Shown in pieces: positions 943 to 33,550 of a DNA stretch of 33,550 bases. The DNA is from Acidimicrobiaceae bacterium (GTDB lineage: Bacteria > Actinomycetota > Acidimicrobiia > Acidimicrobiales > Bog-793): positions 1 to 33,550 of the forward strand of contig PLPK01000030.1 in assembly GCA_003159795.1 (NCBI GenBank), in the 5' to 3' direction. The notes under the pieces were generated by a model, which did not search any database, was not told the origin of the DNA, and saw only the letters and a program-made list of their open reading frames with translations. The first letter of the stretch is position 1. Every line of letters begins with the position of its first letter. Position numbers and translations under genes: made by a program.

Positions 943-1658
943 GGCTCTTCTCAATGAACTGGGGCGCGTGAACAACTGACCGTGCTCCGATAGGTATCCA
1001 CCAGCGCGGCAAGGGGCCTCGCCATTCTCGTGGCTGTCGACAGCTTCGAGAGAGGGAGACCCCCGCCATGGGTGACGGTACCGAATTTGATGACACGCTG
1101 TTGGGACTGCCCGGCTTCCGGGTGCTGGCTGTGACCGACGACGGCGATGAGCTGCTCGTTGGCATCGAGACAATCCGCCGGGCGGCCGGGTGTCCCTCCT
1201 GCGGGGTGATCGCCAGGACCAAGGACCGGCTGCGGGTGTTGATCAGGGACCTGCCGGCCTTCGACCGGCGGGTGCGGCTGGTCTGGTCCAAGCGCCGCTT
1301 CTGTTGCCCGGATCCGGACTGCCCGGTTCAGACCTGGACCGAGCGCTCAGACGAGCTCCCCGATCGCCGTGTGCTCTCTGCTCGGACAGGTCGTGAGTGC
1401 ACCCGCGCCGTCGGTCAAGAGGCGCGCTCTGTCGCCTCGCTCGCACGCTGGCTCGGCGTCTCCTGGGCGACGGTGATGTCAGCTGTGCGCGACTACGGGA
1501 CACCGCTCGTTGACGACCCGGACCGGGTCGGAGAGGTCGCCTCGTTAGGCATCGACGAGACGGCATTCTTGCGAGCGAACGCCGAGCACCCGACGATGTA
1601 CGTCACCGGCCTGGTCGACCTGGAGCGGCGGGTGCTCGTCGACATGATCGAGGGGAAC
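943..1658 (+). mobile_element. Truncated ISL3-family insertion sequence (left end retained)
   Basis: The segment starts with GGCTCTTCTCAATGAACTGG at 943-962. This resembles the GGCTCTTC-type terminal inverted repeats of ISL3 elements, from memory of the family. It then carries the first half of an ISL3 transposase. The right half and right inverted repeat are absent, and sequence homologous to an NDP-sugar decarboxylase takes over at about 1650-1658. No matching right-hand target duplication can be checked because that end is lost. The 8 bases before the left end (935-942) would be the surviving target copy if the element once transposed here. Confidence 0.72.
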
Positions 1659-1661
1659 CGT
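1068..1661 (+). pseudogene. ISL3-family transposase, N-terminal half only
   Basis: ISL3 transposases (about 400-450 residues) cut and paste their element with a DDE nuclease. About 198 residues survive from ATG 1068, which has a GAGAGGGAG ribosome binding site upstream. Seen: a zinc-ribbon with CPSC (C42, C45) and CC-x4-C (C79, C80, C85), a helix-turn-helix near residues 122-140, and the first catalytic aspartate in the LGIDET motif (D163). The similarity stops at about codon 198 (VDMIEG). The frame stays open to 2198, but that part is out-of-frame translation of the neighbouring sugar gene. Without the second Asp and the Glu, the protein cannot be an active transposase. Confidence 0.85.
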
Positions 1662-2443
1662 TGTTCACAATCACGATTGACGGGCCGGTCGACATCGTCG
1701 CCCACCTCGCCTGCCCGGCATCGCCAGCCGACTACATCCGGCTCCCGCTCCAGACCCTCGACGTGGGCAGCCGGGGAAGCGAGGCCTGTCTCCGGCTGGC
1801 CGCCGAGCACGGGGCCCGCTACCTGCTCACCTCGACGAGCGAGGTATACGGCGATCCGCTCGTCCACCCGCAGCCCGAGACCTACTGGGGCAACGTCAAC
1901 CCGATCGGGCCGCGGAGCGTCTACGACGAGTCGAAGCGGTTCGCCGAGGCCCTCTCGATGGCCTGGGCGCGCGAGCGCGGGGTCGATGTCGGGATCGTAC
2001 GGGTCTTCAACACCTACGGCCCACGCCTTCGAGAGGGTGACGGCCGGGTGGTCTCGAACTTCATCGTGCAGGCCCTCACGGGCCGCCCGCTCACCGTCTA
2101 CGGCGACGGTCGGCAGACGCGCAGCCTGTGCTACCAGAGCGACCTCATTACCGGGATCATGGCGATGCTCGATGCTCGGGGTGTCACCGGGCCGGTGAAC
2201 CTCGGCAACCCGGCGGAGTTGACCGTGCTCGAGCTGGCGAACCTGGTGCTCGAGGCGACGGGCTCGTCGTCCGAGGTGGTCCACCGCGAAGCACTGGAGG
2301 ACGACCCGACCCGGCGGAAGCCGGACATCACGCGAGCGCGAGAGCTGCTCGGCTGGGCACCAGAGGTGTCTCTGGCCGACGGTCTGGGGAGGACGATCAG
2401 CTGGTTCGCCGGCATCCTCGACCACACGACGCTGCTGGGTTAG
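1661..2443 (+). pseudogene. UDP-glucuronate decarboxylase / dTDP-glucose dehydratase-like, 5'-truncated
   Basis: This is an extended short-chain dehydrogenase of the UDP-xylose synthase (UXS) type, which makes UDP-xylose from UDP-glucuronate. The open frame from TTG 1661 gives 260 residues. Seen: HLACPASP (15-22), STSEVYGDP (58-66), the catalytic YDESK (Y88, K92), a segment TYGPR and the C-terminal GWAPE. The first 55 or so residues, including the GxxGxxG NAD-binding loop, are missing because an ISL3 fragment is joined at about 1650-1658. The homologous frame can be read a few codons upstream of 1661, so the TTG is not a natural start. Without the nucleotide-binding loop the product should be inactive. 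Related epimerases (RfbB, GalE) are less likely because of the ACPASP motif. Confidence 0.85.
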
Positions 2444-2488
2444 GGGACATTGAGGCCGGCGGTTCAGCGCTAGCCGCTTTGGAGTGAC

Positions 2489-2540
2489 GGAACCAGTTTC
2501 CTGCGTGGTTCCACGACCGGCCAAGCCAAATGGTTCCAGT
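2489..2540. repeat. GGAACCA/TGGTTCC inverted and direct repeat cluster
   Basis: GGAACCA (2489-2495) pairs perfectly with TGGTTCC (2506-2512) across 10 bases, and a second TGGTTCC lies at 2531-2537. CCAGTTTC occurs twice (2493-2500 and 2535-2542). The repeats sit between the truncated sugar gene and the phosphatase. They could be an operator, or the scar of a mobile-element end. Confidence 0.45.
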
Positions 2541-2658
2541 TTCTTGGCGGGAGACAGCGGCTGGTCCTGAGAGCGGCCAAGGCATCAGCCGGCTTGTACT
2601 GCCGAGGTTCTGATCCCGTCGCCGGGTGTCGTGCGCTTCGCGTGGGGAACGTTGGGCT

Positions 2659-3288
2659 GTGATCGGCGCCGTTCGATACGCTCGGGCGATCGAGATCCTC
2701 GTCGTTTGCACCGCAAACATCTGTCGCTCACCGATGGCTGAGGCTCTGCTCGGGACGCGTATCGCTGAGCGCGAGTTGGCCGCCACCGTTGTGTCGGCCG
2801 GCGTGTTAGAAGGCGGTCACGAGCGGCCGGCCGAAGTGACCGCCGTCCTGGCAAAGAGAGGTATCGCGCTCCCAGACGGACTGAGTCGGCAGCTCGTCCA
2901 GGGCGACGTGCAGCGCGCCGATCTGGTGCTCGGCATGGAGAGGGAGCACGTTCGCGATGCAGTGCTTCTCGAGCCCGACGTCTGGCCCCGGACGTTCACT
3001 CTGAAAGAACTGGTCCGCCGCGGAGCCGAACTCGGCCCAAGGCTGCCGTTCGAGTCGCCTGGAGCGTGGCTGGCGAGAGCCCATGAAGGTCGGGACCGTC
3101 CTGACCTGCTCGGGGACTCCCCGCTCGATGATGTCGCCGATCCGTTCGGGGGCCCGGGCTCAGACTACGAGGCGGCTGCAACCGAGATCGAAGACCTAGT
3201 CGATCGCCTCGTATCCCTCCTTTGGCCCATGAGTGGAGGTTCGCACCATGCACCAGGAACATCTGGTGCGCAGGCGGTGCCCTCATGA
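2659..3288 (+). CDS. Low-molecular-weight protein-tyrosine phosphatase
   Basis: This cytoplasmic phosphatase removes phosphate from protein tyrosines. In capsule and exopolysaccharide loci such enzymes (Wzb/CpsB type) reset the tyrosine autokinase that controls polymerisation. The catalytic P-loop CTANICRS begins at C17 and fits CX5R(S/T). A DP-containing loop (DVADPFGG) near residue 150 carries the general-acid aspartate. The 209-residue length exceeds the usual 150-165. The surplus is a middle insertion around residues 110-145 and a short C-terminal tail. GTG 2659 is chosen because GGGGAA lies 9-14 bases upstream; GTG 2626 would add 11 residues without a clear ribosome site. It follows polysaccharide-gene remnants, which fits a role in surface-glycan control. 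Confidence 0.85.
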   Translation: MIGAVRYARAIEILVVCTANICRSPMAEALLGTRIAERELAATVVSAGVLEGGHERPAEVTAVLAKRGIALPDGLSRQLVQGDVQRADLVLGMEREHVRDAVLLEPDVWPRTFTLKELVRRGAELGPRLPFESPGAWLARAHEGRDRPDLLGDSPLDDVADPFGGPGSDYEAAATEIEDLVDRLVSLLWPMSGGSHHAPGTSGAQAVPS

Positions 3289-4308: not shown

Positions 4309-7300
4309 TTGTCGAAGTCGGCTGCGATGCCTGACAGAGTCGTCCGTCCGACCACGCGGCTTGGTGGCGCGCCGGTGCGGGGCGCGGCACGTCGGTCGGT
4401 CCGAGCGGTCAGCGGTCTGACAGTGTTCGTGGTGGCGGTGCTGGTCGGTCCGGCGTCGGGCGCGTCGCCGGTCGTGGGCCACGCGTTCTCGCCGGCCGGG
4501 TCGCTCGTGGCGGTCGGCGGTGTCCCGGGCCGGCCGTTCGGGGCCCGGCGTGTCGGGTCGCTCGCCGCCAACCGGATGGTTTCGCTCGGCGTCGCGCTGC
4601 GGCCGCGAGATCCGAGGGCACTTCGCGCCTTTGCCCAGGCCGTCTCGATGCCCGGCTCTTCCCTCTACCACCGCTATCTAACCCCCGGGGCATTCGCGGC
4701 CGAGTTCGGCCCTTCGAGCGCGAGCACGGCGGCAGTCGTTAGGGCGCTGCGCGGTGCGCGACTGCGCGTCGGGACCGTTTCGGCGAACGGTCTCATCGTT
4801 CCGGTTTCGGGGACCGTCGCCGAGGTCGACGCCGCGTTCCACACCCGCCTCGTCGCCTACAGGCTCGGCGACGGCAGGTTGGGCTGGGCGCCGTCGAAGG
4901 CGCCTCGGCTACCGGGGAGTGTGGCGCATGCGGTGTCAGCCGTGCTCGGTCTCGACGACCTCGTCCTCGCCCATTCATCCGTCGTACGCCCGCATGAGGA
5001 GCGGTCGCGAGCGGGATCGACCGCGGCGGCCTTCGTCGCGACCCCGGGCACGCGCGCGACTCCCCAGGCGTGTGCCGCGGCGATCTCCAGCGCGAGTGTG
5101 AACAAGGGCTGGACCGAGGACCAGCTCGCCAAGGCCTACGGGTTGAACAAGCTGTACGCCGAAGGCGGCCTCGGCGGTGGGCAGACGATCGGCGTGCTCG
5201 AACTCGAACCCTTTGAGCGCGCCGACATCGTGGCTTTCGACCGGTGCTTCTTCGGTACCGGTCAGACGACCGTGATCCACACGATCCCGATCGACGGGTT
5301 CGACCTGCGCGGGCCGGGGACCGGCGAGGCGGTCCTTGACCTCGAGATGCTCGCCGCGCTCGCGCCCGAAGCCCGTCTCGACGTCTACGCCGCCCCGAAC
5401 ACGTCGTTCGGTCCCATCGATGCCTACAACGCGATGGTGAGCGCCGACCAGGCGAACATCCTGTCGACGAGCTGGGGTGCGTGCGAGACGTCGCTCCAGA
5501 TCTCGGCCCCGGGGACTCAACAGATCGAGAACTACATCTTCGAGGAGGCGGCGGCGCAGGGACAGACCGTGTTCGCGTCCTCGGGTGACACCGGGTCGGA
5601 CGACTGCGCGGGGACGCAGTTCTCCTCCTCAACAGCCGAGCCGCCCTACCTGTCGGTCGACGACCCGGCGTCGCAACCGTATGTCGTCGGGGTCGGCGGG
5701 ACCTCGCTCCACTCCGACGCGCCACCGCTTAGCCGCGCCGGCGAGGTCGTATGGAACGACGGTGCGTCGGGCGGCGGGACTGGTGGCGGGGAATCGAACT
5801 CGTGGGCGAGTCCGGTCTGGCAGGCGCAGTCGGGCGTTCAGGGCACCGCGGACGCGCCGAGACGACTCGTCCCCGACGTGAGTTCGGCCGCCGACGAGGA
5901 CCGGGGGGTCACCTTCTACAGCGCGAGCTTCTCGTCCGGTTCCTCGTTTCCGTCGGGGGACGCCGGGTGGACGACGCTTGGCGGGACGTCGATCGCCACA
6001 CCGACGTGGGCCGCGATCGTCGCGGACATCGCCTCGTCGGGTGGCGATTGCGCGACACTCCCGATGACGCGGGGCGGGCGGGATCTCGGCTTCGTCGCCC
6101 CCGAGCTCTACGCGGTCGCGGCGTCGAGCTACGCAACCTCTTACAACGACATCACGGTCGGCAACAACGACGTGTTCGGCCTGGGTCTCGGCTACTCGGC
6201 CGAGCCGGGGTTCGACTTCGCCTCGGGTCTTGGCTCGCCGATCGTCACCGACCCGGTCGGAAACGGTGGCCTGGCGGGCGCGCTCTGCGCCGTCGCGACG
6301 ACGACCGGGGGCGTCATTGCGGCCCCGGTCGTGTCCGGGGTCACCCCCGGTGACGGCCCGACGACGGGGGGCAATGTCGTGACCCTGACCGGCACTGGCT
6401 TCACCACGCCCGGCACCAAGCTGCACGTCGAGTTCGGCGCGGCGACGGCGAGCATCGATTCTGTCTCGGACACGTCGCTCACCGTCACCGCGCCCCCGTC
6501 GGCCGTTCCCCCGGTCGAGGCGGCGACGGGCGCCGCCGGCGCGGTCGAGATCTCGGTGACCGTCACGAACCGATCGGGAGAGGCGACGAGCCGGGGGACC
6601 GCTGCGTCGCTCTACGACTACGTCGCCGAGGACGCATCACAGTTGGCTGAGCCGAGCGTGGCGGCGATCGGTCCCCCCGAGGGCAACGTGCGCGGTGGCC
6701 GCTCCGTCACGATCTGGGGAAGCGGCTTTGCCACCGGAAAGGTGCCCTCGGTCACGTTCGGCGGGGTGGGGTCGTCCCGGGTCACGGTCCTGCACGACTA
6801 TGAGATCAGGGCTCGCGTGCCCGCCGAATCACGATCGACCAGGTGCACGACAGGCGTCCGTTTCGAGCCGGCGACCGTCTGCCAGGTCGAGGTCGTCGTT
6901 GGCACGTCACGGGGTTCGAGTGCGACCGAACCGATCTTGCCGCCACCCTCCGGGCGTGTCGTGCTCGGTCCCCAGGGGGTGATCCGGACTGGTGCGGGCA
7001 CCGAGGAGGCCCCGGCGGTGACGGAGTACGACTATGTCCCGACCCCGACAGTGACGCTGGTCGCGGTCGGCAGGTCAGCTGCCCTGCCGGTGCGCATCTT
7101 CGGATCTGGCTTCTCGGTGCTCTCGTTCGACTGGGTGAACCTGGGCTCGGCTTCGTCGGTCGATAGCGAGCAGACGATGGTCGACTACGTCTCCCCGACG
7201 TCGATCGTCGTCACGCCGACCTCCGAGGACCCGACGGGCGCCTCGGCCGTGCCGTTCACCGGCGGCGTGAGCGTCCAGACGGCCGGAGGGCTGAGCAACG

Positions 7301-8181
7301 CCGCCGCCGTGCCGGCTCGTGGGGTGCTCTCCGTGCATCACCTCTCCGTACTCGGTGGATCGACCGCGGGCGGGACGGAGCTCCTCGTCACGGGGGCGGG
7401 TCTCGCCGGTGTCCGGTCGGTCGCCTTCGTGGGCGAGCTCTCGCCACAGCTCGCGGTCTCCACCGGTTCGGCGGTGATGCACGTCTCGGCCGGTGAGCTG
7501 CTGGTCAGGACCCCGGCGCACGCCGCGGGACCCGTCGACGTCCTGCCGTGTTCGGCGACGGCATGCGCCCTGGCGCGACGAGTCGTCGACACGTTCGTCT
7601 TCGTCCCCCGGTCCGCGCACTCGCTCGCGGCGGTCTCCCCCGCGGCGGGCCCGGCCTCCGGCGGGACCGGGGTGACGCTGTTCGGGAGCGGTGTCGACGA
7701 GGCCTCGGCGGTGCTGTTCGGTCCGGCCGTTTCGAGTGTGGTGGCACCGGCACCGGGGTTCCCGCGGGATGACCCGTACGTCGCGGAGGTGCATTCGCCT
7801 CCCGGGCGCGCCAACGCCCGCGTCGCCGTCGCCCTGCTCGGATCGAGGGGCCAAGCCGCCCCACCCCCGCGGGCGTGGTTCCGGTACGTGCCGAGCGCGC
7901 CGAGCGCGCCGCGAGTAGTCGGTCTCGTGCGGGCGGGCACGACGGTCGTTCTCCACTGGCAGACTCCGGCGAGCGACGGGGGCTCGCGGATCACCTCCTA
8001 CACGGTCGTCGTCTCGGCGCCGGGCGCCGCCGGGCGCAGCTGGCGGTTCGGTTCCCGAATCCGCACGGTGCGGCTCACGGGGTTCGTCCCCGGACGGTCC
8101 TACCGGTTTGTCGTGGCGGCGTGGAATGTCAAACACGGGAAGGGCCCACCCGGGGCCGCCCTCGCCGCCGGCGCCGCCTGA
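4309..8181 (+). CDS. Secreted sedolisin-type (S53) serine-carboxyl peptidase with IPT/TIG and FN3 repeats
   Basis: This exported acid-active endopeptidase belongs to the kumamolisin/sedolisin family. From TTG 4309, which has GAGGAG 5-6 bases upstream, the order is: a long basic signal/anchor region with hydrophobic core 34-50; pro-domain about 85-220, which is normally self-cleaved; catalytic domain about 265-650; several IPT/TIG immunoglobulin-like repeats (about 673-772, 783-870, 912-1000, 1007-1097 and 1106-1194, some weak); and a C-terminal fibronectin-III domain (1199-1290). The catalytic residues are visible: E340 and D344 in EAVLD, the oxyanion aspartate D427 in SSGDTG, and S561 in GGTSIATP. 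The calcium-site region is FDFASGLGSP (635-644). At 1290 residues it is about twice a minimal sedolisin; the tail probably mediates surface or substrate binding. Confidence 0.93.
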   Translation: MSKSAAMPDRVVRPTTRLGGAPVRGAARRSVRAVSGLTVFVVAVLVGPASGASPVVGHAFSPAGSLVAVGGVPGRPFGARRVGSLAANRMVSLGVALRPRDPRALRAFAQAVSMPGSSLYHRYLTPGAFAAEFGPSSASTAAVVRALRGARLRVGTVSANGLIVPVSGTVAEVDAAFHTRLVAYRLGDGRLGWAPSKAPRLPGSVAHAVSAVLGLDDLVLAHSSVVRPHEERSRAGSTAAAFVATPGTRATPQACAAAISSASVNKGWTEDQLAKAYGLNKLYAEGGLGGGQTIGVLELEPFERADIVAFDRCFFGTGQTTVIHTIPIDGFDLRGPGTGEAVLDLEMLAALAPEARLDVYAAPNTSFGPIDAYNAMVSADQANILSTSWGACETSLQISAPGTQQIENYIFEEAAAQGQTVFASSGDTGSDDCAGTQFSSSTAEPPYLSVDDPASQPYVVGVGGTSLHSDAPPLSRAGEVVWNDGASGGGTGGGESNSWASPVWQAQSGVQGTADAPRRLVPDVSSAADEDRGVTFYSASFSSGSSFPSGDAGWTTLGGTSIATPTWAAIVADIASSGGDCATLPMTRGGRDLGFVAPELYAVAASSYATSYNDITVGNNDVFGLGLGYSAEPGFDFASGLGSPIVTDPVGNGGLAGALCAVATTTGGVIAAPVVSGVTPGDGPTTGGNVVTLTGTGFTTPGTKLHVEFGAATASIDSVSDTSLTVTAPPSAVPPVEAATGAAGAVEISVTVTNRSGEATSRGTAASLYDYVAEDASQLAEPSVAAIGPPEGNVRGGRSVTIWGSGFATGKVPSVTFGGVGSSRVTVLHDYEIRARVPAESRSTRCTTGVRFEPATVCQVEVVVGTSRGSSATEPILPPPSGRVVLGPQGVIRTGAGTEEAPAVTEYDYVPTPTVTLVAVGRSAALPVRIFGSGFSVLSFDWVNLGSASSVDSEQTMVDYVSPTSIVVTPTSEDPTGASAVPFTGGVSVQTAGGLSNAAAVPARGVLSVHHLSVLGGSTAGGTELLVTGAGLAGVRSVAFVGELSPQLAVSTGSAVMHVSAGELLVRTPAHAAGPVDVLPCSATACALARRVVDTFVFVPRSAHSLAAVSPAAGPASGGTGVTLFGSGVDEASAVLFGPAVSSVVAPAPGFPRDDPYVAEVHSPPGRANARVAVALLGSRGQAAPPPRAWFRYVPSAPSAPRVVGLVRAGTTVVLHWQTPASDGGSRITSYTVVVSAPGAAGRSWRFGSRIRTVRLTGFVPGRSYRFVVAAWNVKHGKGPPGAALAAGAA

Positions 8182-27740: not shown

Positions 27741-27781
27741 CTCGACGCGGTCCCATCGCAGATCGACGGAGATGTGCTCGG

Positions 27782-27813
27782 CTGACTGCGAGGTAGTCGC
27801 GTGCTATCATGAT
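27782..27813 (+). promoter_or_regulatory. Extended -10 promoter with overlapping palindrome (toxin-antitoxin)
   Basis: CTGACT (27782-27787), a 17-base spacer and TATCAT (27805-27810) preceded by TGC form a good sigma-70-like promoter with an extended -10. The antitoxin ATG follows 6 bases after the -10, so the message should be leaderless. The perfect palindrome ATCATGAT (27806-27813), extendable to 14 bp with one mismatched pair, overlaps the -10 and suits ribbon-helix-helix autorepression. Confidence 0.6.
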
Positions 27814-27816
27814 GGC

Positions 27817-28029
27817 ATGGCGAAGAAGGTGACTACGGTGCGCATGCCCGGAGATCTCGCCGAGCAGGTCGACGCTGTCGCACGCGGCCGTGGTGTCAGC
27901 GTGAACACCGTCGTCGTCGACGCGCTGCTCGCCGAGATCGAGCGCGTGAAGACTGACGCGCAGTTCATGACCCGGCTCCGGGAGTTGACCGAGCGCGACA
28001 AGGAGATCCTCGAGCGCCTCGCTAGGTGA
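27817..28029 (+). CDS. Ribbon-helix-helix antitoxin
   Basis: This 70-residue DNA-binding antitoxin has the strand and two helices of the Arc/CopG fold: KKVTTVRMPGDLAEQVDAV then RGVSVNTVVVDALLAEI. A charged C-terminal helix (about 45-70) would wrap and neutralise the Doc toxin. ATG 27817 follows a leaderless promoter, so it lacks a ribosome site. The stop overlaps the toxin GTG (GTGA, 28026-28029), the normal arrangement in such pairs. The antitoxin should repress the operon through the palindrome at its -10. The family differs from the Phd antitoxin of phage P1, but RHH-Doc pairs are known. Confidence 0.87.
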   Translation: MAKKVTTVRMPGDLAEQVDAVARGRGVSVNTVVVDALLAEIERVKTDAQFMTRLRELTERDKEILERLAR

Positions 28030-28415
28030 GGTACCTGAGCCTTGCCGAGGCGCTCGTTGTCGCGGAGGCCGTGACCGGGATCGACAGCGAGGTCTTGGCG
28101 CGTTCAGCAGGCGTCGGGCTCCTCGATTCCGCGCTCCATGCTCCGCAAGCGGGCTTCGGCGACCAGGACCTCTATCCAGACTTCGTCGACAAGGCTGCAG
28201 TCTTGGCGGTCCGGCTGACCCGGAACCATTCGCTTCCCGACGGCAACAAGCGGTTGGCATGGGGTTGCCTCACGTTGTCTTGCGCACTCAACGACCGCGA
28301 TCTGCAGGTTCCCGTCGACGAGGCGGTCCGTCAGATGCTTGCCGTCGCATCTGGCGAGGTCGACGAAGCACAGATGGCCACCTGGCCGACCGGGTGGATC
28401 GGCCAGCCAGGCTGA
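28026..28415 (+). CDS. doc: Doc-family toxin (Fic fold, death on curing)
   Basis: The 129-residue Fic-fold kinase belongs to the Doc type, which phosphorylates elongation factor Tu and stops translation. The catalytic loop HSLPDGNKR (H68-R76) matches the Doc/Fic motif HxFxD(A/G)NKR, with Leu in place of Phe. Upstream residues GLLDSALHAPQAGFG fit the conserved N-terminal part. Length is right for Doc. GTG 28026 overlaps the antitoxin stop. All key residues (H68, D72, N74, K75, R76) are present, so it is probably active. Its place beside an att-like site and a recombinase fragment suggests it arrived with a mobile element. Confidence 0.9.
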   Translation: MRYLSLAEALVVAEAVTGIDSEVLARSAGVGLLDSALHAPQAGFGDQDLYPDFVDKAAVLAVRLTRNHSLPDGNKRLAWGCLTLSCALNDRDLQVPVDEAVRQMLAVASGEVDEAQMATWPTGWIGQPG

Positions 28416-28421
28416 CCCTCG

Positions 28422-28745
28422 TTACCTCGCCGCTCCGGCCACGAAGGCCACAACGATGTAAGTGGCGTGCCGGTCCAAGGACACTCGGGCACGGTCGTAG
28501 CGCATGGTCGTCCGCGGGTCCGCATGAGATGCGGCTTCTTGGACGTCACGCAGCGGCACTCCGGCGTCGAGCGCCGCGGTGATGAATGCGTGCCGGAGGG
28601 TGTGGGGACCAACGGTCTTTGCGATCCCGGCTCGCTTGGTCACGCGTCGGATGATCCGACCGGCGCCACGGCGATCAAGGCGGTTGCCGTCAGCGCCGAG
28701 GAAGATCGGTCCTTCGCAGCGCTCACCGATCGCGAGGTCAGCTAC
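28422..28745 (-). pseudogene. Tyrosine recombinase/integrase, C-terminal fragment
   Basis: Only the last 105 or so residues of a phage-type integrase survive. Seen: the box-II arginine context HTLRHAFITAALDAG, the conserved HADPRTTMRYDR region with the catalytic tyrosine, and a terminal SLDRHATYIVVAF. The similarity begins around DLAIGERCEG (28739). Upstream the minus-strand frame is open to 28817 but is not integrase-like, and the first 200 or so residues, including the first catalytic Arg, are gone. Its stop faces the doc stop across 6 bases. The fragment lies about 80 bases from a tRNA-derived att-like sequence. Confidence 0.82.
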
Positions 28746-28821
28746 GGCCCCAGAGAGGCTCCCGTTTCTTGCCCCACTCTCGATGTCCCAAACGAACGAG
28801 TCCTGGTTGGACAGCACTGGG

Positions 28822-29171: not shown

Positions 29172-29933
29172 TCACTGAGGCTTTCGTGGGCGATTCCGGC
29201 GCCAAGAGACAACTGACTGGGCGAAGCCCACAGCCCCAAGGGCAGCTACGAACCACCCGAAGGGCGTTCCCATCGAGGCGAAGATCACTATGACGGCGAT
29301 TCCAACGACCATGAAGCATGGCATCAGCACTTTCATCGGTCGCGAGAGCCCCGGCAACTTGGCGACCGAAGGAGTCGATCGGCCCCAATTCCACAACGAC
29401 CTAAGTTGTCCCGACAGTGCTCCAATCGCGCGACGTGGCACGGGGTCGATCAGCACCCCCCGTTGTTGAAGTTCTGCCAAGACGCGACCCTGGTCCCGAC
29501 GCGTCCAGAAGTATGCGAGCTGGCCATCAGAGAGTTCGAAGCCAATGCCAGACGTCATGAAGCTGCCGCTGAGCAGGAATGCGGCGGTGATCTCGTGGAG
29601 TGGTGCCTCGAAGTCCGAGAACATAGCCCCGGCAAACGACCGAGGATCCATTCGCAGGGTGGCTTCGCCGATCGTCAGTACGACAAGAGGAACCGTCGCA
29701 TTGAGCCGACCGCCGAGAGCGGAGGGCACGTTCATCCCGCCCACGAGCTCAGCTTTGTTGCCTGAGGCGACCTTGGGGGCCAATCCGCTGTGTGGGGGGG
29801 ACGCATTTCCGGTCCATGAAGCACCATCCCACCAGCGGTAAGGGGCGACACGCCACGGATCCGGGTACCAGCCCGGCGAGGCGGGATCGTTGGCTCCTGA
29901 GAGCACGCCGCTCACGTATACAGATTGTCCCAT
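29172..29933 (-). CDS. DUF2510-domain membrane protein
   Basis: The 253-residue protein has an N-terminal DUF2510 motif, GWYPDPWRVAPYRWWDGASW (21-40), a short Trp-rich module common at the ends of actinobacterial membrane and secretion-linked proteins. A middle soluble region (about 70-185) is unrecognised. Two hydrophobic helices follow near 198-218 and 221-243, and a basic tail ends RRNRPRKPQ. ATG 29933 has GGAAG 6 bases upstream; the TTG at 29945 is less likely. The single-gene setting in an accessory region gives no functional hint. The domain call is secure; function is unknown. Confidence 0.82.
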   Translation of the reverse strand: MGQSVYVSGVLSGANDPASPGWYPDPWRVAPYRWWDGASWTGNASPPHSGLAPKVASGNKAELVGGMNVPSALGGRLNATVPLVVLTIGEATLRMDPRSFAGAMFSDFEAPLHEITAAFLLSGSFMTSGIGFELSDGQLAYFWTRRDQGRVLAELQQRGVLIDPVPRRAIGALSGQLRSLWNWGRSTPSVAKLPGLSRPMKVLMPCFMVVGIAVIVIFASMGTPFGWFVAALGAVGFAQSVVSWRRNRPRKPQ

Positions 29934-30259
29934 CCGCGCTTCCAACGCGGGGACTCGGAGCCGGTCCAGTCAAGCGCGGAACGACGGCTCGGGAACATGC
30001 GACCTGACCCATAACACGCGGCGAGATCGCAGCGAGACCGTCTCAGATCGCCGTTCATGAAGGGGCGGGGCCGTGTCAAGGGACGACCCGGAGGCATCCT
30101 GTCGGTTGTTCTGGGACAGTTCCGCGGATGCAAGTCGCCGAACCGGGCGCGGCGCTCGCGTCAACTGACGCGGGCACAAGGGCGTCGTTCTGTACCCTGG
30201 CACACCTCACCTAGCGGTAGCTCTGTGGGCCCGTGCAACGGCCAAGCGAGAAGGGTGAC
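29934..30259. other. Intergenic, no supported gene
   Basis: The segment lies upstream of the DUF2510 gene. It contains small inverted repeats (for example GAGAC-C-GTCTC near 30040-30050) but no open frame with family resemblance, RNA gene or clear promoter. Confidence 0.35.
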
Positions 30260-30472: not shown

Positions 30473-31039
30473 CGACGGGCGCCGAGGATGATCAAGGCGG
30501 TCGAGACGGTCTTCCCCTCCTCGGTCCGGATCCGCTGCTGGTTCCACCGTCACGCCAACATCCGGGCCAAGCTTCCCGACGACGAGGCGGCAGACGCGCT
30601 TGCCCACCTCTACTCCGTGCCGGACGCCCCCACCCTCGATGCTGCGCGGGCGGCGGCCGACGGCTTCGAGAACACCTACGGGAGGGCCTTCCCCGCGGCC
30701 GTTGTCTGCTTCGCGGACGACCGGGAGGTGCCCCTTTCCGTTCACCGGGTCCTTGTGCGGTATCACATCCGGGTCCGCACGACCAACCTGGCCCAGCGCA
30801 GTTTGGAAGAGGAGGGCCGACGCACCAAGGTGGTCACCTGCTTCACGAGCGAGCGCTCGATGATGAAGCTCGCCTTCGCCACGATGATCCGCTCGGCCGA
30901 GCGCTGGTGCCGCGTCTCGGTGAACGACATCGAGCGCCAGCAGCTGAAAATGCTGCGGGCCGAGGTCGTGCTCGACCCGCCGCCGGCCGAGGACCACTCG
31001 ACCGGACGCAGCAGAACAGCAGAACACCGCGCGGCGTGA
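30473..31039 (+). pseudogene. IS256-family transposase, C-terminal fragment
   Basis: About 185 residues of a mutator-type (IS256) transposase remain: MIKAVETVFPSSVRIRCWFH (with the conserved C-x-x-H), the last-third motif RTTNLAQRSLEEEGRRTKV with the catalytic glutamate region, and FTSERSMMKLAFATMIRSAE. The first half with both catalytic aspartates is missing, and no start with ribosome site precedes it, so it is non-functional. The stop at 31039 is followed by a sequence like an IS256 right end (31056-31080). Confidence 0.85.
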
Positions 31040-31153: not shown

Positions 31154-31855
31154 ATGCGCCTGCGAGCGGCAGTCGCGGCCTTGGGTGTGATCGCCGGAAT
31201 CGTGGTGTGCAACGTCGGATTCTCGCCGGGTATTAGCTCGGCGACCGGCTCGACGTGCTGGAACTCGACGCTTCCTTGCTATGCCCGCGGAACGTTCAAC
31301 GATGGCTCCGCTTGGGGCGGCGGATATGTCCAGACCGAAGTCGCGAACATGTCCGCTACCGAATCATCCTGGATCAACCAAGAGCTGTGGACCACAACGA
31401 ACGGCAATTCGAATACTTACTGGGCTGAGATCGGTTACAGCGCTAACCAACCGTATTGCCGCGGAAACCAGCTGCGGTGGTTCTATTACTACCAAAACCC
31501 GAACGCGAGTTATGGCACCTGTTTCGGGGGCAGCCCGTCAGTCGGCAGTTGGCATCAGCTTGAGATTCAGGAGGACACAAGCAGCGAGTGGTACATCTAT
31601 CTCGACGGCAACGAAGTTGCGATTGATTCTGGCACGAGCGGCTGGAACTACAACGACTACACGGGTCTTGAGTATCACTACGGCACGTTCACGAATATGT
31701 ACACCAACGGCTACTATTCCTACAACGAAGTTAGAGGTACTGGCTGTTGCAGCTGGTACTACTGGGATGAAGGCGGAAGTGACGCAAAGTACCCGACCGA
31801 TTACAACTGGATTTGGACCTCAACTAATCCGTGGATTCACGGGTATAACACGTGA
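31154..31855 (+). CDS. Secreted aromatic-rich protein of unknown function
   Basis: The 233-residue product begins with a clear signal peptide: MRLR, hydrophobic core 5-24, and a likely cleavage near SSA-TG around residue 31. The mature part is very rich in Trp, Tyr, Asn, Ser and Gly, and has six or so cysteines (pairs near 35/42, 102/122 and CC near 198), fitting an exported disulfide-bonded beta-sandwich. The segment VGSWHQLEIQEDTSSEWYIY then LDGNEVA resembles carbohydrate-binding or concanavalin-like folds of hypothetical actinobacterial exoproteins; no catalytic motif is visible. ATG 31154 has GGGGGAGG 5 bases upstream. Base composition is visibly lower in G+C than the neighbours, suggesting transfer. 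It is followed after 9 bases by a membrane-anchored protein gene. Confidence 0.78.
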   Translation: MRLRAAVAALGVIAGIVVCNVGFSPGISSATGSTCWNSTLPCYARGTFNDGSAWGGGYVQTEVANMSATESSWINQELWTTTNGNSNTYWAEIGYSANQPYCRGNQLRWFYYYQNPNASYGTCFGGSPSVGSWHQLEIQEDTSSEWYIYLDGNEVAIDSGTSGWNYNDYTGLEYHYGTFTNMYTNGYYSYNEVRGTGCCSWYYWDEGGSDAKYPTDYNWIWTSTNPWIHGYNT

Positions 31856-31864
31856 GGTATTGAG

Positions 31865-32461
31865 GTGGAACAGCGACGTCTGAAGCGAAGGTATTACCGC
31901 GAAGCACTGATGCTCGCCGCAATATTCACGGTCGCTGGAAGTGTCGCGGGGATTCTGACTCGCGGCAGCTCAGCTGGCGCGGGAAGTTCGGCGCCTTCGG
32001 CTGTCACACGCGCTCAACCGTCCGGAACGACAGGCCCGTCATCATCACCGGTTCCTGCGCCGACGCCTTCTGTGAACACGATTCCGAGCTCGGAGCAAAG
32101 TCAGTACGTCGCGGGACCGTTCATGAGCGAGAGTGCGATCGAGTCGATGGCTACACAGTTGGCGACTAGCGCAGATCCTGCGCCCGTGACCGTGATCTCC
32201 GCAAAGCTTGAAAGTGTCGCGGCAGCGAGCCAAGACGTTGGCTTGCGGGTGGCGAGCTTTTACACCGGCGACGATCGAATGGTGTGGCTCGTGTGGCTCG
32301 ACGGCCAGTACGTGCCAAGCTGCATCACGAATCCGTGCCCAGCCCCGATCGATGGCGTTTACTTCATGGTGTTCGACGCAACGACTGGTGACAGCCTCGG
32401 AGTAGGGAGGGTTGTTAGTGCACCAGGCATGCCGAGCGCGGCGAGTATATCGAACGGTTGA
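31865..32461 (+). CDS. Membrane-anchored or exported protein with Ser/Pro/Thr linker, unknown function
   Basis: From GTG 31865 the 198-residue product has a basic N-terminus (EQRRLKRRYYR), one hydrophobic helix (14-32), a low-complexity Ala/Ser/Pro/Thr linker (about 35-75) and a C-terminal domain (80-198) with a CITNPCPAP cysteine pair. The plan is that of a type II membrane protein or uncleaved exported protein with an outside domain. A GAGG ribosome site lies in the 9-base gap after the preceding secreted-protein gene, so the two form an operon and probably work together outside the cell. It shares the lower G+C of its partner. I do not recognise the domain. Confidence 0.72.
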   Translation: MEQRRLKRRYYREALMLAAIFTVAGSVAGILTRGSSAGAGSSAPSAVTRAQPSGTTGPSSSPVPAPTPSVNTIPSSEQSQYVAGPFMSESAIESMATQLATSADPAPVTVISAKLESVAAASQDVGLRVASFYTGDDRMVWLVWLDGQYVPSCITNPCPAPIDGVYFMVFDATTGDSLGVGRVVSAPGMPSAASISNG

Positions 32462-33197
32462 GCGTTCGACCCACTTTGCGCACCCAAAGTTGAGGCCCGT
32501 CACATAGCTCGGGGGGAGAAAGATCCTCCGCGTGGATTCCTCGTTGACTGCGGCTGTCGAAAACTCGTCCGTCCTGGTTGTGCGATGCGCCAGTGCCAGC
32601 GAACGAGTCCGCCGAGGATGTCGCTTCTCCGGACGTGAGCCGAATCGAAGTCCTGACGGGACTTCCGCGCGTCAACGGCGGCAAGCTGAAAAGTCGGCGA
32701 TCGGCACTCCGTCGTCCCAGTGGCCGGAACCGTAGTTGTCGACGAGATCGAGAGCCTCTGTGAGCTCCTCGTGCAGGAGCGGAAAGGCACCAAAGAGCGC
32801 TCCGCAGGACGCGCAGCCGTTCGAGAGATAGGCGATGCCGGCTGTCCTCGAGTGACGCCGCCGTACCTGGCACCGACGGGATAGTTGTGACGCGCACAGT
32901 CAATCCTGCGGCGAGCCCACAGGCCCGATGGTAGGAAGGTTCCAAAGGGCTCTTGATACCTTGAACGGTTTCGGTGGCACCGGTAGGACGAAGTCTGCGG
33001 CAGGAGCACCTTGTTTGATCGAAGTGGCGGTGGCGTCTGCCCGGAGTTCAGCGTCTAACCCCCCGATTGAACGCTTCTCGAGACGGCCATAAACCGCTGA
33101 TCAGGAAGTTCGCCTCGCCAGGTCCCTGGTCCGTCAGCGAAATGTAGGGGCGACATATACGTGATTGGCGCTGCAGTTTGCAGTATTGTTTTAGGTG
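32462..33197. other. Long intergenic region with gene debris
   Basis: No intact gene is supported. It contains a minus-strand coding-like fragment (32672-32845, listed separately). Sequence from about 33144 (TGTAGGGGCGACA) to the transposase start could be the left end of the IS1634-like element. A TGCAG/CTGCA pair flanks TTT near 33172-33182. The two long minus-strand frames here look like random translation. Confidence 0.4.
32672..32845 (-). pseudogene. Fragment of an unrecognised CxxC protein
   Basis: In the minus frame ending at TGA 32672-32674, 57 codons read as plausible protein: AGIAYLSNGCASCGALFG, then a helical FPLLHEELTEALDLVDN and GSGHWDDG. The NGCASCGA part looks like half of a zinc-ribbon. 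Third positions are about 75% G/C. There is no start codon, and upstream the likely frame moves to another phase, so it appears truncated or frameshifted. The family is not recognised. Confidence 0.42.
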
Positions 33198-33550
33198 ATG
33201 TACGTGAAGCGGACGGTACGCAAGCGAGGCGACAAGCGCTACACGTACCTGTCGCTCGTCGAAGCCGTGCGCTCAGGCGGCAAGAACACCCAGCGGGAGC
33301 TGTTCCGCTTGGGCGAGGTTGGTGAGCTCGAGCGGACCGGACAGCTCGACCGCATCGTCGCCGCGCTCTCGAGCTACACGACAAAGCACTGGATTGCGTC
33401 CGACGAGCTGGAGGGAGCGGGTGCTCCTTCCTATGGTGCCGTTGCGGCGGTCGCTTCTTACTTCGACCGCGTCGGTCTTCGCACCCACTTCGCAGCCCTC
33501 GGTGAGGGGCGGCGTCACCAGCACCTCGCCGACACGGTGTTCGTGATGGT
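33198..33550 (+). CDS. IS1634-like (IS4-superfamily) transposase, N-terminal part, cut by window edge
   Basis: The frame from ATG 33198 stays open to the window end (117 codons). The start MYVKRTVRKRGDKRYTYLSL followed by VEAVRSGGKNTQRELFRLGEV is typical of IS1634-type DDE transposases of about 500-550 residues. A later segment YGAVAAVASYFDRVGL also fits. The DDE residues lie beyond the window, so activity cannot be judged. A GTG directly before the ATG is an alternative start. Confidence 0.82.
   Translation, partial: MYVKRTVRKRGDKRYTYLSLVEAVRSGGKNTQRELFRLGEVGELERTGQLDRIVAALSSYTTKHWIASDELEGAGAPSYGAVAAVASYFDRVGLRTHFAALGEGRRHQHLADTVFVM

Follow-up and report, generated by a model that had tools for sequence, protein, structure and literature searches.

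A rare, conserved gene pair encoding a predicted secreted beta-sandwich protein and a membrane-anchored PepSY-like protein in two bacterial phyla

Introduction

The eqolisins (peptidase family G1, PF01828) are characterized by a concanavalin-like 7+7 beta-sandwich, an invariant dyad of Gln and Glu, and pepstatin-insensitive acid peptidase activity. Their known members include scytalidoglutamic peptidase, aspergillopepsin II, and Alicyclobacillus pepG1 (PMC3009609). Few catalytic classes of peptidase have received as little study as the glutamic peptidases (PMC9343461). The catalytic residues of SGP, Gln53 and Glu136, are Q107 and E190 in full-length numbering, and the Glu188/Glu297 dyad of neprosin (family G3, PF03080) is found at equivalent places on an eqolisin-related beta-sandwich (PMC9343461). 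The Q107E mutant of SCP-B and the E188Q mutant of neprosin are both inactive (PMC9343461).

PepSY domains (PF03413) are found in YpeB, in the propeptides of M4 peptidases, and in Streptomyces SspA. As propeptides they act as inhibitors of M4 peptidases, and SleB is inhibited by YpeB. It has been proposed that free PepSY proteins regulate peptidases near the cell, and no clear role has been established for PepSY proteins that lack an enzymatic domain (PMC4282423).

Here we report an analysis of a two-gene locus that resembles both of these groups and, in part, the LamG lectins (PF13385). The locus lies near the end of a window of 33,550 nucleotides, by which we mean the whole analysed stretch of a contig (PLPK01000030.1) from an Acidimicrobiaceae bacterium of the phylum Actinomycetota.

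Results and Discussion

A secreted and an anchored protein encoded 9 bases apart

Gene 1 (positions 31154-31855, plus strand) is an open reading frame of 233 amino acids, whose ATG start is preceded by GGGGGAG. It is separated by 9 bases (31856-31864, plus strand) from gene 2 (31865-32461, plus strand), an open reading frame of 198 amino acids with a GTG start. The original prediction, made from the letters of the window, had described the two as a secreted and an anchored protein encoded 9 bases apart; the coordinates proved exact, and homologues are found in the same order elsewhere. It had also called gene 1 aromatic- and cysteine-rich and noted a Ser/Pro/Thr stalk in gene 2, both of which hold. 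The gene 1 protein has a signal-peptide-like N-terminus (residues about 1-32), 9% Asn, 7 Cys, and a Trp, Tyr and Phe content of 18.5%, the next highest value among the window genes counted being 12.7%. The gene 2 protein has a basic N-terminus and a predicted helix at residues 2-30 that includes a single hydrophobic stretch, followed by a low-complexity Ser/Pro/Thr/Ala stalk at residues about 33-80 (31961-32104, plus strand). In the AF2 model this stalk is disordered (pLDDT <50) and the C-terminal domain is folded (pLDDT about 70-91).

The composition of the pair had been described as sharply different from the rest of the window. The GC content is indeed lower (0.551 in gene 1 and 0.608 in gene 2, versus 0.62-0.73 in the other window genes), and part of this difference in gene 1 reflects a protein rich in Asn, Tyr and Trp. 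The description is nevertheless overstated, since the GC3 values of 0.697 and 0.638, respectively, are like that of a neighbouring gene at 29172-29945 (0.682). This neighbour lies on the minus strand, and its product has a DUF2510 domain in the N-terminal part and a membrane stretch in the C-terminal part.

Neither protein had a match in Pfam, NCBIfam, PHROGs, PADLOC, or the PDB sequences, which bears out the earlier impression that no known family is evident; the absence of a visible toxin motif likewise held in the first four of these libraries. Rfam and tRNA scans gave nothing useful, and no paper on the gene pair was found in the open-access literature.

The two genes form a conserved unit in two phyla

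Homologues of gene 1 were found only by whole-genome searches, for which the single protein and later profiles served as queries, and by tblastn with the relative from Centralia_MAG_23 (locus L016). A single-sequence look-up of gene 1 gave no match in genome contigs, viral contigs, phages, or plasmids, and a single-sequence search of 395 genomes of the class gave no further relative at E<=0.001. Among 197 relatives searched, gene-1 relatives were present in the window's own genome only, and the profile search identified them in 4 of 376 genomes of the phylum. In total, we identified eight other loci with a gene-1 relative, in Actinobacteria-type genomes, in the window's own genome and on a Bacillota plasmid: L016; L017 and L021, both from a single groundwater MAG; L023 and L029, both from another genome; L027, from a low-GC genome of another class; L052, from Alicyclobacillus sp. 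ALC3 (Bacillota) of acid mine drainage sediment, where the sequence is annotated as a plasmid; and L043, on contig C30 of the window's own genome.

At all nine gene-1 loci, the window included, a gene-2 relative is located directly downstream on the same strand, with a gap of 6-19 bases in those relatives where both gene ends are intact. The second pair in the window's own genome was reached from the gene-2 profile, searched alone and without looking for gene 1; the gene-1 relative (E=1.4e-10) lay immediately upstream of the gene-2 relative, and the locus therefore constitutes independent confirmation of the pair. The shared order and strand of gene 1 and gene 2, their close spacing, and their joint presence in different genomes show that they form a conserved, undescribed unit, which is rare and occurs in two phyla, with up to two copies in a genome. 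Independent occurrence of the genes, which would speak against a paired system, was found for one partner: gene 1 was not seen without gene 2 at any of the nine loci, and gene-2-type domains occur without gene 1 at five loci (L039, L040, L042, L045, L047). At the first of these (991-2790, minus strand, contig C8 of the window's own genome), a gene-2-type, PepSY-like domain forms the central part of a secreted-looking protein of 599 amino acids, which shows that this domain is also found within a larger protein.

A chance association of two unrelated small genes at the degraded, mobile-element-rich end of a contig would be compatible with the transposase and integrase remnants nearby and with the damage seen in some relatives (gene 2 of L016, gene 1 of L023 and L029). 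It does not fit the same order, strand and close spacing in nine of nine gene-1 loci, one of them in a different phylum. With so few gene-2-type genes in a genome (about 1-5 at E<=0.001), the likelihood that the two genes are neighbours by chance is negligible; pair conservation refutes this explanation, to which we attach practically no likelihood.

The coherence of both families was assessed by a left-out test, in which an HMM was built excluding the window protein and then searched for that protein. It recovered gene 1 of the window at E=1.3e-20 and gene 2 at E=4.5e-9, and most other members were also recovered well. Recovery was weak for gene 1 of L023 (0.0098) and L029 (0.13) and for gene 2 of L027 (0.14) and L023 (0.028); these members are consequently the least certain and rest partly on their position in the pair. 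An apparent match to a protein of more than 1000 amino acids (L019) and the weak class-level matches were judged to be non-relatives or left aside, and a further candidate (L018) was rejected by eye.

Several of the relatives are irregular. Gene 2 of L016 (949-1384, minus strand) has no intact in-frame start, and gene 1 of L023 (1381-1501, plus strand) and of L029 (1161-1593, minus strand) has no normal signal-peptide start; all three are damaged or mis-assembled. On the Alicyclobacillus plasmid, gene 1 is annotated in the PLSDB gene table (WP_274436683.1) and the gene-2 homologue (6716-7189, plus strand) is absent from it.

Gene 1 is a probable concanavalin-like beta-sandwich

For comparison with gene 1, an alignment was made of eqolisins of this phylum, among them eqolisins of the window's own genome. 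With signal peptides included, hhalign gave scores of 42.6-47 (P about 4e-6 to 2e-5), partly inflated because the signal peptides were aligned with each other. After trimming, the scores were 25.9-30.1, above every shuffle and near those of LamG. One comparison gave 28.2 (P=0.0017; at most 16.6 in 300 shuffles), and comparisons based on nine members gave 28.1-30.1 (at most 17.7 in 150 shuffles). The register of the alignment was unchanged in nearly all of 20 five-sequence subsets, and the hhalign probability of the trimmed comparison was 9-25%. None of the gene-1 members matched the Pfam HMMs of PF01828 or PF03080 at E up to 10 or 1; the absence of PF03080 from 178 genomes of the phylum is not itself informative. 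The domain of gene 1 is predicted to be all-beta, and an AF2 model from five sequences was strand-rich but of low confidence (pLDDT 32.5). Foldseek placed neprosin at ranks 3-7 for this model, a result that we treat as a lead only because the model is unusable at that confidence.

The main rival to an enzymatic function comes from the LamG comparison. Gene 1 could be a non-enzymatic concanavalin- or LamG-like lectin or adhesin that is exported to the cell surface and whose aromatic-rich surface would bind glycans or matrix polymers, with gene 2 as its anchored receptor or chaperone; we consider this quite possible, though not favoured. The LamG profile scored 25.5-26.0, far over the shuffles (at 25.5, P=0.0035; maximum of 100 shuffles with a realigned profile 15.4), and the motif G-x-W-H-x(n)-W-x-V-Y-x-D-G, common to the gene-1 family, is similar to the classic strand pair of LamG. 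The relative in L016 matched Laminin_G_3 (PF13385) at E=1.5e-5 and 25.6 bits, just under the curated cut-off of 27.6, and the gene-1 profile reached laminin alpha-2 LG domains in the PDB at E=2; the high Trp and Tyr content of gene 1 points the same way. On the other side, window gene 1 had no HMM match to PF13385, and the alignment of the gene-1 profile with LamG extends over only 28-35 columns, versus 76-77 for the eqolisins. Gene 1 also differs from LamG lectins in its Cys-rich composition, in its pairing with gene 2, and in an extra acidic pair that is kept in all nine members and is not known as a requirement of LamG lectins, and partners of the PepSY-like kind are more usual for enzymes.

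Taken from these profile comparisons, a secreted concanavalin-like beta-sandwich is reasonably supported for gene 1. The scores do not settle whether it is eqolisin-like or LamG-like, and the conserved residues modestly tip the balance toward the former.

A conserved acidic pair at near-eqolisin spacing

Two positions of gene 1 are kept in all nine members, 81 residues apart: Glu92 in 'WAEIGY' (codon 31427-31429, plus strand, placed from the translation), which is Glu in seven members and Gln in two (L023 and L029), and the invariant Glu173 in 'TGLEYHY' (codon 31670-31672, plus strand). The hhalign alignment places Glu92 on the eqolisin catalytic Gln (SGP Gln53), and Glu173 falls on the catalytic Glu (SGP Glu136) in a low-confidence, low-stringency extension of the alignment. 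The two SGP residues are 83 apart, and neither glutamate of gene 1 can be located with the poor AF2 model.

The substitutions at position 92 can be read in two ways. The Gln of L023 and L029 is as in the eqolisins and the Glu of the other members as in neprosin, which counts for a glutamic-peptidase-type dyad. At the same time, a family of mixed Glu and Gln is not reassuring for catalysis, because the corresponding exchanges inactivate both SCP-B (Q107E) and neprosin (E188Q).

Two conserved glutamates may also suggest a new glycoside hydrolase family, that is, a beta-jelly-roll with two catalytic Glu in the manner of GH11, GH12 or GH16, anchored or regulated by gene 2. Their spacing of about 81 residues and a G-x-E motif give a GH12-like layout by eye, many concanavalin-like proteins are glucanases, and gene 1 is aromatic-rich. 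Nevertheless, the hhalign scores were at chance level for both families compared (GH12, 15.0; GH11, 9.9), and Gln at the first position in L023 and L029 would remove the nucleophile or the acid of a retaining glycosidase. GH11 and GH12 were rejected as relatives, and we regard a glycoside hydrolase as unlikely.

Gene 1 shares with the eqolisins its secretion, a probable concanavalin-like beta-sandwich, a near-identical spacing of the putative dyad, and a similarity over all shuffles. It differs from them in that the first residue of this putative dyad is usually Glu, not Gln, in having no PF01828 match and neither the NWSGY nor the AEW(I/V)xE signature, in being far more aromatic, and in always occurring with gene 2. 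The Glu/Glu pair of most members recalls the dyad of neprosin; however, neprosin carries an all-beta pro-domain in its own chain, and gene 1 leaves no room for a pro-domain between the signal peptide and the domain.

Gene 2 is likely a PepSY-like protein

The folded part of gene 2 (residues about 82-190) is predicted to be a PepSY-like domain, with the motif FDATTG, and a C-terminal DAxTGxxL motif is present. Several gene-2 members matched PF03413 at the same profile positions, below threshold; no member tested was above the Pfam cut-off. The gene-2 profile gave weak matches in the PDB (9vy3, pro-elastase) that include an M4 propeptide PepSY protein. Foldseek with the AF2 model gave the YpeB C-terminal domain (5boi) and the vibriolysin MCP-02 propeptide (3nqz) at a probability of 0.4-0.5, among the best obtained for gene 2. 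An hhalign comparison with three PepSY domains scored 29.0, over only 16 columns (maximum of 200 shuffles 11.6). Together, these sequence and model comparisons suggest that gene 2 is likely PepSY-like, a candidate member of the family.

Gene 2 resembles the known PepSY proteins in its anchored extracytoplasmic domain and DAxTGxxL motif, and differs from them in remaining under the Pfam cut-off, in having one domain only, and in being paired with a secreted beta-sandwich protein in place of an M4 peptidase or SleB. In L023, gene 2 is anchored by a lipobox (LLSAC) and not by a plain helix, as would suit a protein that must be anchored in one way or another.

A possible surface-tethered peptidase and its regulator

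Our preferred reading, to which we assign a probability of about 0.4, is tentative: a secreted glutamic-peptidase-like protein encoded by gene 1 may be controlled or tethered by the anchored PepSY-like protein encoded by gene 2. We infer catalysis, binding and regulation by the pair as follows. Gene 1 would be exported via its signal peptide as a divergent glutamic-peptidase-like enzyme with a putative dyad of [E/Q]92 and E173. As it has no long built-in propeptide, gene 2 might supply a propeptide-like function in trans. Held in the membrane on its flexible stalk, gene 2 may bind gene 1 at the cell surface and hold, fold or inhibit it, so that gene 1 activity would stay restricted to the producing cell or be regulated there. 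Surface binding, the function originally suggested for the pair, stays alive through the LamG- and concanavalin-like signal of gene 1, but on balance the observations favour a protein of glutamic-peptidase-like type and a PepSY-like partner.

A broader proposal, which we advance with caution, is that these proteins represent a rare, widespread new family of secreted glutamic-class peptidases, mostly Glu/Glu and sometimes Gln/Glu, whose propeptide-like regulator is a separate anchored PepSY-like protein specified by the adjacent gene; the split, surface-tethered zymogen principle would then have moved between phyla. If the pair does consist of a peptidase and a PepSY protein, it would allow the old idea of extracellular peptidases regulated by free PepSY domains to be tested directly. 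A lectin pair would likewise be a surface system without a name, found in two phyla and in up to two copies per genome.

Mobile elements and genomic context

An IS256/Mutator-type transposase remnant (30488-31039, plus strand; PF00872, 6.7e-13; NF033543, 2.6e-20, model positions 199-335 of 338), which corresponds to the C-terminal part, lies directly upstream of the pair and outside the unit, and several remnants of mobile elements are found toward the contig end, from about 27 kb onward. The pairs in L021, L023 and L052 also adjoin transposases, and spread of the pair by mobile elements is plausible.

These neighbours also bear on the original suggestion that gene 1 is an interbacterial effector and gene 2 its anchored immunity protein. 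Adjacent genes, a patchy distribution, very divergent sequences, up to two pairs per genome, and mobile elements next to the pair at several loci would all suit such a system. The proteins themselves do not: gene 1 has an ordinary secretion signal, and searches of Pfam, NCBIfam, PHROGs and PADLOC gave no toxin family, delivery domain or other delivery marker. Its conserved core looks like a beta-sandwich of the lectin or peptidase type, and gene 2, which is similar to domains that regulate proteases, is predicted to face outward from the cell that makes it. We therefore consider an effector and immunity pair very unlikely.

Further observations concern other parts of the window. A truncated tyrosine recombinase, with its C-terminal part only (PF00589 positions 96-168), is encoded at 28422-28817 on the minus strand. 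At 33195-33550 (plus strand), the beginning of an open reading frame that is cut by the contig end looks by eye like the N-terminus of an IS1634/IS4-type transposase, with no Pfam or NCBIfam match. At 1068-2443 (plus strand), an apparent N-terminus of an ISL3-type transposase runs into a sugar-nucleotide epimerase or decarboxylase in another frame, a region that by eye looks rearranged or damaged by insertion. An RHH (CopG-like) gene overlaps a Fic/Doc-family gene by 4 bases at 27772-28415 (plus strand) and forms with it a probable toxin-antitoxin module. A large protein encoded at 4309-8181 (plus strand) contains a Pro-kumamolisin activation domain of the S53/sedolisin type, two IPT/TIG stretches, and FN3, and the window's own genome has two eqolisin-family matches (L058, a true eqolisin, and L063); the organism thus has several genes of the acid-peptidase type.
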